Assembly (NCBI GenBank): GCA_947490345.1
Contig: CANLGL010000025.1
Span: forward strand, 1 to 64,000
Length of the DNA stretch: 64,000 nt
Origin: Deltaproteobacteria bacterium
Lineage (GTDB): Bacteria > Myxococcota_A > UBA796 > SXON01
Direction: 5' to 3'
The first letter of the stretch is position 1, and each line of letters starts with the position of its first letter. The position numbers were made by a program, and so were the translations under genes. Below, piece by piece: positions 58,521 through 63,263 of this stretch. The notes beneath the pieces are model-generated. The model did not search any database and was not told the DNA's origin. It saw only the letters and a program-made list of their open reading frames with translations.

Positions 58521-61500
58521 CTACACGGCTTCTTCGTCTCCCTCGCCGCCGGCCATGGCCGTGTCAGCGATCATCATCCCCAGCTTCTGGTAGGCGGCGA
58601 AGCCGGTACCTGCGGGGATGAGGCGGCCCATGAGGATGTTCTCCTTGAGGCCACGGAGGCGGTCGGTGCGGCCATTGATGGCCGCCTCGGTGAGGACGCG
58701 CGTGGTCTCCTGGAAGGAAGCCGCGCTGAGGAAGCTGTCGGTGGACAGAGAAGCCTTGGTGATGCCGAGCAGGAGGGGCTCGTTCTGAGCCGGACGCCCC
58801 CCCGTCGCGACAATGCGCTCGTTCTCTTCGTCATAGCGCCATTTCTCGACCGCCTCGTCCACCAGGAAGTCGGTGTCTCCCGGGTGCCGTACCTTGACGC
58901 GTCGGAGCATCTGCCGAACGATGACTTCGATGTGCTTGTCGTTGATCTTGACACCCTGGAGGCGGTAGACCTCCTGGATTTCGTCGACCAGGTAGTTCGC
59001 GAGCTCGCTCTCGCCCTTGATCTTCAAGATGTCGTGGGGATTTGCGGCACCGTCCATGAGGGGATCGCCGGCGCGTACGAAGTCGCCCTCGTTGACCGTG
59101 ATGTTCTTGCCCTTCGGAATCAGGTATTCCTGGGCCTCGCCGGACTCCGCCGTCACCACCACCCGCCGCTTGCCCTTCGTTTCCTTGCCGAAGGAGACGA
59201 CGCCATCGGTTTCGGTGATGATCGCGACTTCCTTGGGCTTGCGCGCCTCGAACAGTTCGGCCACCCGCGGCAGGCCGCCGGTGATGTCCTTGGTCTTGGT
59301 CGTTTCGCGGGGGATCCGGGCGAGCACATCGCCGGTGAAGACTTCCTGTCCCTCTTCGACCTCGACCTTGGTGCCGGCGCTGAGGAACACTCGAATCTTG
59401 TGCTTGCCCTTGGCTCCCGGCTCCTTCACGACGATGCGCGGACGCTTGTCGCTGTCGGAGAACGTCTCGACCTCACGCGACTTGCGGCCCGTGAGCACGT
59501 CCGTCGTCTCTTTGACGACGTTTTCGAAGTCCTCGAACAGCACCACACCGGCGTCGTTGGCGAGGATCGGCGTGTTGAATCCGTCCCACTCCGCAACGCG
59601 AGCTTTGGCTACCACCCGCTCGCCGTCCTTGACCAGGATGTGCGCGCCGTAGGGGATACCGTACTTCTCGCGCTCCCGCCCCTTGTCGTCGACCACCTTG
59701 AGCTCCCCGTTGCGGGAGACTGCGATCAGGTTGCCATGCCGATTCGTGACGGTGAGCAGCGCGTCAGAGAACCGGATGGACCCCGTGGTCTTCAGCTCGA
59801 GGTACGACTGGGTGACCTCCTTGTTCGCCGCGCCGCCAATGTGGAAGGTACGCATGGTCAGCTGAGTCCCCGGTTCCCCGATGGACTGAGCGGCGATGAC
59901 GCCAATGGCCTCGCCGATGTTGACCAGCGTGCCGCGAGCCAGATCGCGCCCGTAGCACATGGCGCAGACACCCCAGCGCATGTCGCAAGACAGCACGGAG
60001 CGAATCCGCACCCGGTCCACGCCCGCGGAAACGATGTTGTCGACCGCTGCCTCGTCAATCAGGCCGTTGCGCGGCACGAGGACTTCGTCGCTGTAGGGGT
60101 CCATGATGTCGTCCGTCGCCACGCGACCGAGCACCCGCTCACCGACGTGCTCAATCACCTCACCGCCCTCAATGAGGGATCGGATTTCCATGCCGACACG
60201 GGTGCCGCAATCCTTCGCGGTGATGATCGTGTCCTGCACAACATCTACCAGACGACGGGTCAGGTATCCAGAGTTTGCCGTCTTCAGTGCCGTGTCAGCC
60301 AGACCCTTCCGCGCACCGTGGGTCGAGATGAAGTACTCGAGTACCGTAAGCCCCTCGCGGAAGTTGGAGGTGATGGGGTTCTCGATGATCTCGCCGCTTG
60401 GTTTGGCCATCAGCCCGCGCATTCCAGCCAGCTGACGGATCTGCGTAGTGGAGCCTCGAGCGCCCGAGTCCACCATCATCCAGATCGCGTTGAAGGAGTC
60501 GTGGTCCTCCATCTTGCCGGTGTCCGGATTGGCCACCTTTTCGACCTTGATCTCGGCGATCAGGGACTTCGAGATCTGGTCCGTCACCGCCGACCAGAGA
60601 TCGACAATCTTGTTGTAGCGCTCCTTCACGGTGATCAGGCCATCGTTGTACTGACTCTCCGTTTCACGAGCCTCCGCCGTCGCCTTCTCGATGGCGCTGG
60701 CCTTGGTCGTCGGGATGTGCATGTCGTCGATGCAGACGGAAATGCCCGCCGAGGTGGAGTAGCGGAAACCGATCTGCATCAGCGCGTCGGCCAGCAAGAC
60801 CGTCTTCTTGGCACCGGCGACCCGGTAGCAGCGGTCGATAATCTCACCGAGTTGCTTCTTACCGAGGGGGCGATTCACGATGCTGAACGGCAATTCCGGA
60901 GGGACGACATTCGCGAAGAAGAGCACCCGGCCAACGGTGGTCTTGACCAGTTCTCCGCGCGCCTCAAGGGCACTGGAGGACTCCTCAGTATGGAGGGGCA
61001 CCTTTCCTTCGAACCCGAAGAATCCCGCCGGGGCGATGACCAAAACCAGATCGTCATCGAAGCGCGCGCGTAGCGCCTGCAGGCCCTGCCGCAACACACC
61101 GAGTCGTTGAGCGGAGTTGAGCCGCGCGTCGACCGAAACCTTGCCGCCAGCCCCAGGAAGAGCCGGCGCGATCACCCCGATGACTCGCGCGTTGCCACGG
61201 AGCTTCGGAAGTCGGAATGCCTTGATCGTCAGGCCCGCGGGACCGTCGACCGTTACCGACTCTTCGAAGTCGCCCCGGCCTGCCGCTAGTCCGGCTGCGG
61301 ATCCCAGGCCATGTCCCGCGGCGAAGCGGAGGCCCTTTCCCTTCGGCATATCGCCGCCAAGGTGGAACAGGGAGACGGCGGCGAACGCATCGCCAGACAC
61401 CGAGCCGCCATCCACGCTGACCGCGATGTCACCGCCGACACTCGCCACGTCGGTCACGATGCTGTTGGCCTCGTGAATGACGGTAGCGCCACGGTGCACG

Positions 61501-63263
61501 TGCCACACTTGCCGTTTGGCGCCCAAGTCCACCCCGAGGAGCAGGTGGGCGTCGCCGAGCTCCGGGAGACGCTCGGGGATACGCACGGACAGCGGAGGCG
61601 CGGGCAACCGCACAAACACCGGCGCCTGCAGATGCACCTCGCCCGCGTCGTACGCGCTCTCTACCTCGACGGGATTGCTGAATACCCGGTCATGCCCCTT
61701 CGCGTAGCGCCGCTCCCGCGTCATGTAGTAGCAGCCCAGGACGACGTCCTGGCTCGGCTGGATGATCGGGCGACCGGAGGCCGGGCTGAGGATGTTGTTG
61801 GTGGACATCATCAACACGCGCGCTTCGATCTGCGCCTCAATGCTGAGCGGCACGTGGACAGCCATTTGATCGCCGTCAAAGTCCGCGTTGAAAGCCGTAC
61901 AAACAAGCGGATGTAGCTGAATCGCCTTCCCCTCGATGAGCACCGGCTCGAACGCCTGGATGCCAAGGCGGTGCAGGGTGGGCGCGCGGTTGAGCATGAC
62001 CGGGTGCTCCTTGATCACCTCGTCAAGCACGTCCCACACTTCGTTCTCTTCGCGCTCGACCATCTTTTTGGCCGCCTTGATCGTCGTGACCACGCCGCGC
62101 TCCTCAAGCTTGGCGAAGATGAACGGCTTGAACAGCTCCAGCGCCATCTTCTTCGGGAGTCCACACTGGTGAAGACGGAGCTCCGGTCCGACTACGATGA
62201 CCGATCGGCCTGAATAATCCACGCGCTTTCCGAGCAGATTCTGCCGGAAGCGACCGTGTTTGCCCTTGAGCATGTCCGAAAGCGAACGCAACGCGCGCTT
62301 GTTCGGACCGGTGAAGACCTTCCCGCGACGGCCGTTGTCGAACAGCGCGTCCACGGCCTCCTGAAGCATCCGCTTCTCGTTGCGGATGATGATTTCGGGA
62401 GCGTTGAGGTCGTGCAGCCGCTTGAGCCGGTTGTTCCGGTTGATGACCCGCCGATAGAGATCGTTGAGATCCGACGTGGCGAACCGGCCGCCATCGAGCG
62501 GCACGAGCGGCCGGAGATCGGGGGGGATGACCGGAACCACCTCGAGCATCATCCACTCCGGACGATTGCCCGACTGCTGGAAGGCCTCGACGATCTTGAG
62601 CCTCTTCGCAAACTTCCGGCGTTGAGCCTCAGACGAGGTGTCACGCATCTGGGCGCGAAGCGTCTCCGCAAGGCCCTCAATGTCCATCTTTCCGAGCGCG
62701 TCGCGCACAACCTCACCGCCCATACCGACGTCAAAGCTGCCGTAGCCATAGGTGCGGATCGCCTCCTGGTAGTCCTCTTCGGAGAGGATTTCGCCCTCTT
62801 TCAAGGTCGACTCGCCCGGGCTGGTGACCATGTAGGACTCGCAGTACAGCACCTTCTCCAGGTCCTTCAGCGAAACGTCGAGAAGGTTGCCGATGCGACT
62901 CGGCAGGCTCTTCAAAAACCAGATGTGCGCGACGGGAGTGGCGAGCTCGATGTGGCCCAACCGTTCACGGCGTACTTTTGCCTGGATGACCTCCACCCCA
63001 CACTTTTCGCAGGTGATGCCACGGTGTTTCATCCGCTTGTACTTGCCGCAGATACACTCGTAGTCCTTCACCGGACCAAAGATCTTTGCGCAGAACAAGC
63101 CGTCTTTTTCTGGCTTGAACGTGCGGTAGTTGATGGTCTCGGGCTTCTTGACTTCGCCGTGTGACCACGAGCGGATCTTCTCAGGCGACGCCAGGGAGAT
63201 CTTGACCGCCACGTACTGCAGCGGGTTCTTCGGCTTCTCGAAGAGATTGTAGACGTCCTTCAT
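58521..63263 (-). CDS. rpoC: RNA polymerase subunit beta' with a large extra insertion
   Basis: 1580 residues from ATG 63263, which has GGAGG 5 nt upstream. Zinc ribbon [19 protein letters not shown] lies near residue 70, the active-site NADFDGD at 459-465, the [11 protein letters not shown] zinc site near the trigger loop, and an SI3-type insert of the sort common in Gram-negative bacteria after [11 protein letters not shown]. Between R552 (HLQAPVFVR) and K774 (KTTVGRV) there are 221 residues where E. coli has about 20. This Gly/Ala/Val-rich block of about 200 extra residues is in frame and has codon use like the rest. Typical deltaproteobacterial beta' has about 1400 residues. Confidence 0.97.

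Follow-up and report, generated by a model that had tools for sequence, protein, structure and literature searches.

A large insert in the β′ subunit of RNA polymerase in one order of a Myxococcota-like phylum

Introduction

RpoC, the β′ subunit of bacterial RNA polymerase (RNAP), is among the most conserved proteins, and the omega subunit is the homologue of Rpb6. Lineage-specific inserts in β′ and their occurrence in its domain bD4 are already known (articles are cited here by PubMed Central identifier, for those parts of their text that were accessible). According to the 2024 survey of Alvarez-Carreno et al. (PMC11515920), such inserts occupy seven locations, the 'middle of beta'-bD4' among them; most are HABAS domains, rare variants consist of HABAS, BEAN or sLC domains in bD2, bD4, bD5 or bD7, and sLC-type inserts at such sites are given for lineages such as Firmicutes and DST. 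The same survey describes β′-bD4 as a bacterial domain inside uD3 (residues 518–571 in Xanthobacter) and shows uD3 to be interrupted likewise by the archaeal insertion aD2. Two large inserts, β′i2 and β′i6/SI3, are named after the scheme of Lane et al. that PMC2939025 cites. In polymerases with Rpb8, the contacts between Rpb8 and Rpb1 lie mainly in Pore 1, which acts as one functional unit with Rpb6 and Rpb8 (PMC13257274). In E. coli, the β′ helix K598–K615 links the tip of DksA to guanosine tetraphosphate (ppGpp) site 1 and to omega (PMC7676912). Here we describe an insert of 221 residues in the RpoC encoded by a 64,000-nucleotide stretch of contig CANLGL010000025.1 from a Deltaproteobacteria bacterium (the whole stretch being called the window), and show that a single gain, on the branch leading to one order, was followed by vertical inheritance with rpoC.

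Results

An in-frame insert in a conserved RpoC

The rpoC gene occupies positions 58521..63263 of the window on the minus strand, and its reading frame is open from the methionine at 63263 to the stop at 58521, giving 1580 amino acids (aa) that were assigned to RpoC by Pfam domains RNA_pol_Rpb1_1 to _5 and by alignment with E. coli RpoC. Outside gaps the two proteins were 61.5% identical (the comparison covering the 1349 residues of E. coli RpoC encoded in the stretch used, which lacks the final part of rpoC). The alignment contained just two gaps of at least 8 residues, an 8-aa deletion and a net insertion of 202 aa after E. coli residue 554, a position that by homology should fall in β′-bD4, because bD4 of Xanthobacter spans residues 518–571. 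The insert comprises residues 553–773 (60945..61607, minus strand) in the middle of this domain, and the conserved core resumes past it with TTVGR (60927..60941, minus strand), which was invariant in the 21 rows of alignment A2; alignment A3 comprises 19 of these rows. The sequence-only reading, an earlier annotation of the window made from its letters, had described 221 residues between R552 and K774 where E. coli has about 20, in an intact frame between conserved flanks; these coordinates proved exact, and the spacing from VR to TTVGR in E. coli is 20. The net 202 aa between conserved flanks agree with the definition of a β′ lineage-specific insertion as an in-frame addition of more than 40 aa between common bacterial regions. 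Gly, Ala and Val make up 38% of the insert, as expected of a block described as rich in these residues, and the GC content at third codon positions was 0.76 in the insert and 0.82–0.83 in the flanks.

Distribution and descent of the insert

We searched for the insert across the phylum, using 'order', 'family' and similar terms as the group codes of the genome search; the order in question is known here solely from metagenome-assembled genomes (MAGs). A search with the insert alone gave a match in 27 of 38 genomes (the window genome counted), in open frames of 1278–1687 aa, and 15 of 20 loci from this search make up the profile A1. When A1 was run against 282 genomes of the phylum (10 candidates per genome being scored where candidates were many), 30 matched, every one of them in the same order, while a query built from both flanks matched 228 of the same 282. 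Consequently all 30 order genomes with an rpoC match carry the insert, and the profile matched none of the remaining 198 rpoC-positive genomes at E ≤ 0.001, two of which (G199 and G256) had weak flank matches only. Neither the insert nor rpoC was matched in 19 further listed order genomes, which we read as gaps in draft genomes. Within this sample of the phylum the insert is thus restricted to one clade. Homologous inserts at the same junction in other genomes also show that it is more than a product of chance or of a chimeric assembly.

In a wider scan, one conserved 9-residue pattern was compared with contigs of 84,980 species and found 79 stretches, 20 of them relatives, a single-pattern scan by which members will have been missed. 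The relatives were titled Deltaproteobacteria, Myxococcota, Pseudomonadota or uncultured proteobacterium, and two names stood apart: MAG contigs L054 and L058, which encode insert-bearing RpoC, bear the names Klebsiella pneumoniae and Bifidobacterium breve in their titles. These labels are very likely wrong, given the RpoC sequence itself. The phylum is termed Myxococcota-like here on the strength of certain record titles. A plasmid search for the insert returned nothing up to E = 1.

The mapping of insert presence on an RpoC tree, proposed with the sequence-only reading, was carried out for the phylum. In a core tree of 57 RpoC sequences with the insert removed, the 28 long-insert rows (27 genomes) all fell on one side of one branch, with a Shimodaira–Hasegawa-like approximate likelihood ratio test support of 99, so that one change accounts for them. 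Of 24 splits, 13 were common to the core tree and a tree of the insert itself (27 rows), against 0.17 on average and never more than 2 after label shuffling; certain terminal branches of the insert tree are long. Three order rows missed by the motif search (L043, L044 and L046) were out of the trees and of the conservation count below, and L076, from the same genome as L040, was counted in the core tree only. From the core tree and the splits shared between insert and core, we conclude that a single gain on the branch to this order was followed by vertical descent with rpoC.

Comparison of close pairs shows purifying selection on the insert. In eight such pairs, the ratio of nonsynonymous to synonymous substitution rates (dN/dS) was 0.08–0.29 for the insert (dS 0.13–1.18) and 0.00–0.11 for the flanks. 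After dereplication of 48 rows at 95% identity, the remaining 30 rows showed 21 positions conserved in at least 95%: R561, D571, G577, D579, R591, G592, G611, F647, L685, R693, D712, R714, N716, R720, L724, R732, L739, G747, F749, G750 and P756. Ten of them form a conserved polar set of six Arg, three Asp and one Asn. By net charge (K+R minus D+E), six inserts fell into two groups: three had +1 or +2, and the other three had −9 to −17.

Predicted fold and searches for relatives

Beta strands, which the sequence-only reading had predicted for the insert, dominate its AlphaFold2 model. The first model, built with 21 sequences, had a mean predicted local distance difference test score (pLDDT) of 86.7 and a predicted template modelling score (pTM) of 0.84, with 14 strands of at least 3 residues, one long helix (model residues 180–201) and both ends on the strands of the host hairpin (8–16 and 234–242). 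A second model, started from L069, which is 40% identical to the window insert, gave a pLDDT of 87.8, a pTM of 0.85 and 13 strands in almost the same order of elements; the two models are not independent, because their alignments have most rows in common. The insert is thus confidently predicted to be a compact, mainly-beta domain that folds on its own, with its ends on the strands of the host hairpin.

Foldseek found no match to the Protein Data Bank (PDB) at E ≤ 0.001 with either model (best 0.18 for the first and 0.13 for the second), and template modelling scores normalized by query length were at most 0.24 among the best 50 of 604 and of 654 matches. By their descriptions, neither RNA polymerase chains nor Rpb8 or OB-fold chains occurred among these best 50 with either model. 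Against viral models, the first model reached a best E of 0.11. This lack of matches is no proof that the fold is new. Sequence searches gave the same picture: Pfam matched nothing in the insert at E ≤ 10 and nothing in 15 order members at E ≤ 1, in agreement with the earlier statement that intein motifs are lacking; in NCBIfam and PHROGs the insert had scattered single-member matches (E 0.04–0.16) that we judged to be noise; and of the two PDB sequence matches up to E = 10, the better, a reductase at 0.028, was judged to be chance. No internal repeats were detected in the insert.

Two possible origins were examined by hhalign. For an origin from SI3 or a HABAS domain no relation was detected, the probabilities being 0.1–0.3% for SI3 (0.3%), the RpoC C-terminal part (0.1%) and the core, whereas the control comparison of SI3 with the C-terminal part reached 94.7%; by this measure the insert shows no sequence relation to the hybrid-motif (HABAS/SBHM) domains. 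It is also separate from SI3 in position, as had been claimed: what we call SI3, following the sequence-only reading, is the 181-aa trigger-loop stretch from TFHIGG to DITGGLPRV (59289..59831, minus strand). The other candidate was a nitrilase (CN_hydrolase), because RVVGLV..DARLNT.RRL..DLVLVVAPAGFFG resembles a first beta-alpha-beta unit. As hhalign gave a probability of just 0.7–0.8% against 22 nitrilases of relatives, this origin was dropped; the position of the catalytic Glu would be Ala in the insert.

The same site in other families

To compare the site we used 30 fetched RpoC sequences, 29 of them from outside the order, in a choice that included families in which the flank query had split into two matches. 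The stretch between VR and TTVGR measured 216–255 aa in 27 genomes of the order and 7–87 residues in the 29 RpoC of other families of the phylum: 7–25 aa in f7, f8, f9, f12, f14 and f42, 50 aa in f26, and 75–87 aa, as cut by script, in f45. Among solved structures, five aligned chains had 20 residues here, E. coli copies included (60 of 87 matches listed). Within this phylum and these five chains, there was no sign of the widespread insert of comparable length that would have refuted the sequence-only reading. That reading had known of no insert here in other groups; lineage specificity stood, and the wider statement was too strong, because inserts in β′-bD4 had already been listed (PMC11515920).

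Two of these families have inserts of their own. In f45, rpoC was matched in three of five genomes, and all three carry an insert of about 70 aa between VRMG and TT[TV]GR (L078 in G262, L081 in G257 and L086 in G240). The L078 insert matched the C-terminal domain of ribosomal protein L7/L12 (PF00542) at E = 7.4e-9, above the cut-off, while L086 gave just E = 0.055 and L081 no match. The bL12 C-terminal domain is of a translation-factor-binding type, and its presence within an RNA polymerase would be remarkable in itself. In f26 (L084, L085, L089 and L092), the 50-aa insert resembles the C-terminal segment of the same RpoC (hhalign probability 93.7%, E = 2e-7) and is apparently a copy of that segment placed in β′-bD4; our guess is that the segment is the sLC domain bD7 of the survey. 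At least three distinct sequences therefore occur at β′-bD4 within one phylum, namely the domain of the order, a sequence akin to the bL12 C-terminal domain and another akin to the C-terminal segment of RpoC. Such variety is what a tolerant surface site would show.

Surroundings of the insert and secondary-channel factors

Counted from the N of NADFDGD (61869..61889, minus strand), a motif that we take to be the catalytic loop, R552 follows after 93 residues, close to the earlier estimate of about 90. On the other side of the insert, the equivalent of E. coli β′ helix K598–K615 (PMC7676912) was located by alignment at residues 802–819 of this RpoC (60807..60860, minus strand), and in four measured rows 43–44 residues separate TTxGR from the K615 equivalent. 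At ppGpp site 1, the K615 and D622 equivalents are kept in 28/28 order rows and 29/29 others, the R362 equivalent occurs in 27/28 order rows (one not found) and 15/29 others, and the R417 and Y626 equivalents vary in both sets alike. DksA-type zinc fingers (PF01258) and Gre C-terminal domains (PF01272), families that do not separate paralogues, were present in 32/32 genomes, 19 of them order members; the loss of a secondary-channel factor as a change of partner was thus not seen.

Long antisense open frames of up to 729 aa accompany rpoC (58884–61073, plus strand) and other genes of the window, and appear to result from high GC content and codon bias.

Discussion

A possible role for the insert

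Our preferred reading, to which we give a probability of just under one half (about 0.48), is that the insert is an accessory domain of RNAP, a fixed protein-contact platform on the pore face with no catalytic part. Its place would be the outer side of the pore domain, on a strand heading for the helix that connects the secondary channel with omega and ppGpp site 1. There it may stabilise the neighbourhood of the pore and omega, and it could offer a binding face to a lineage-specific partner or to extruded RNA, a role akin to the one that Rpb8 has at Pore 1 in the polymerases of archaea and eukaryotes. A lineage-specific regulator contact had been put forward as a possibility in the sequence-only reading. 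The insert would be no substitute for Gre or DksA. Retention throughout the order, the single gain, the agreement of insert and core trees, purifying selection in close pairs, the two concordant models, the conserved polar set, the location before the K598–K615 helix and the variety of sequences that the site takes in other families speak for this reading. Since the insert was gained once and kept, it probably gives the order a contact surface of its own on RNAP.

The strongest rival is that the insert is an ornament, a self-folding domain in a tolerant surface hairpin that is kept for its folding only and has no regulatory job. This is a real possibility, though we hold it to be less probable than a contact platform. 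The faster evolution of the insert and the steady Gre- and DksA-type content speak for it and against the platform. Across 15 pairs, dN of the insert was about 3–19 times that of the core (the core of L068, at 1258 aa, being cut too long), and it exceeded dN of SI3 in 13/13 pairs having both, by a narrow margin in L053–L054 and L056–L057; dN/dS was lower in the insert than in SI3 in four of the 13 (these two pairs, window–L062 and window–L064). Between the window and L059, L062, L064, L066, L068 and L069, which belong to other genera or families, dN/dS of the insert was 0.35–0.64, a range also compatible with weak constraint, to which we give less weight because dS is high (0.95–1.84). The content of Gre- and DksA-type domains does not shift alongside the insert (19/19 order genomes), and no co-occurring factor was found for it. 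The site itself accepts differing sequences in the phylum, the bL12-like insert of f45 and the C-terminal-segment relative of f26 among them. Further caution attaches to the placement, as the insert was modelled as an isolated domain and its outward orientation on the outer pore face, near the omega side, is inferred. Likewise, the insert is matched to the site of Rpb8 at the level of domains, both insertions lying in uD3 (PMC11515920, Table 2), with Pore 1 presumably equivalent to this stretch of bacterial β′. Against a mere ornament stand the presence of the insert in 30/30 order genomes with an rpoC match, the ten charged or polar positions conserved at 95% or more, and the purifying selection in close pairs.

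The conserved Arg, Asp and Asn residues could also line a pocket that receives a nucleotide, or RNA extruded by way of the secondary channel, making the insert a sensor. Arg occupies 6 of the 21 conserved positions against 15 in 219 positions (P = 0.001, uncorrected), and the adjoining core binds ppGpp in E. coli (PMC7676912). This enrichment is modest, 11 residue types having been tried, which counts against the contact platform. Against a sensor, net charge is +1 or +2 in three inserts and −9 to −17 in three, Foldseek and Pfam gave no known fold, and the same residues may form an internal salt-bridge network, so that we regard a sensor as unlikely. We find equally hard to credit the most far-reaching version of our own proposal, a new fold that arose within RpoC as an obligatory, order-wide regulatory module, a covalent bacterial counterpart of Rpb8 that would bind RNA or nucleotides through its Arg and Asp residues and tune pausing, backtracking or the ppGpp response. 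Less probable still is a barrel-sandwich (HABAS/SBHM) or BEAN domain like those of other RNAP inserts that has diverged beyond detection. HABAS/SBHM domains have a four-stranded sheet with a GD-box-like motif, and BEAN domains a fold of two antiparallel bracket-like elements. The insert is beta-rich, and the survey (PMC11515920) gives HABAS as the commonest β′ insert type and HABAS, BEAN or sLC domains for the rare variants, but the hhalign probabilities for SI3, the C-terminal part and the core were 0.1–0.3%, the control reaching 94.7%, and RNA polymerase chains were absent from the best 50 of 604 and of 654 Foldseek matches. An assembly chimera, an intein or a mis-translated frame can practically be dismissed. 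Although the assembly is split over 129 contigs, identical junctions and the insert recur in other genomes, Pfam shows no intein match, and third-position GC of the insert is close to that of its flanks.

Novelty and comparison with known systems

As far as searches of the literature on RNAP inserts and Myxococcota show (with few subscription papers covered), the domain, its order-wide presence and its unrecognised fold are new. In their accessible parts, PMC11515920 mentions Myxococcota in a list only, and PMC2939025 and PMC13114784 do not mention it. A domain of about 220 residues with an unrecognised fold at β′-bD4 marks the pore face as a place used repeatedly for added modules. For β′-bD4 the survey names just rare variants in its accessible text (PMC11515920), whereas here the insert is kept in every rpoC-positive genome of the order. 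With this domain as a concrete target one can ask if a counterpart of Rpb8 evolved within bacteria, and the domain might also be used as a molecular marker of the order.

Like β′i2 and β′i6/SI3, the insert is a large, in-frame, lineage-restricted domain between universal bacterial blocks; it differs from them in its site, in having no detectable relation to SI3 and in its unrecognised fold. SI3 is closest to hand, being a lineage-restricted, beta-rich insert of the very same protein, but it is a barrel-sandwich structure in the trigger loop, and the insert lies elsewhere and aligns with it at a probability of 0.3%. With the rare β′-bD4 insertions of Alvarez-Carreno et al. 2024 (PMC11515920, accessible parts) the insert shares its location in the middle of the domain; unlike them it is order-wide in a Myxococcota-like phylum, and it may be distinct from all of them. 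Rpb8/Rpo8, which occurs in eukaryotic polymerases and in some archaeal ones, is an OB-fold subunit in its own right (PMC13257274), whereas the insert is part of the RpoC chain with an unrecognised fold; both are extra beta-rich modules, and the insert, like Rpb8, would lie on Pore 1 beside omega/Rpb6.

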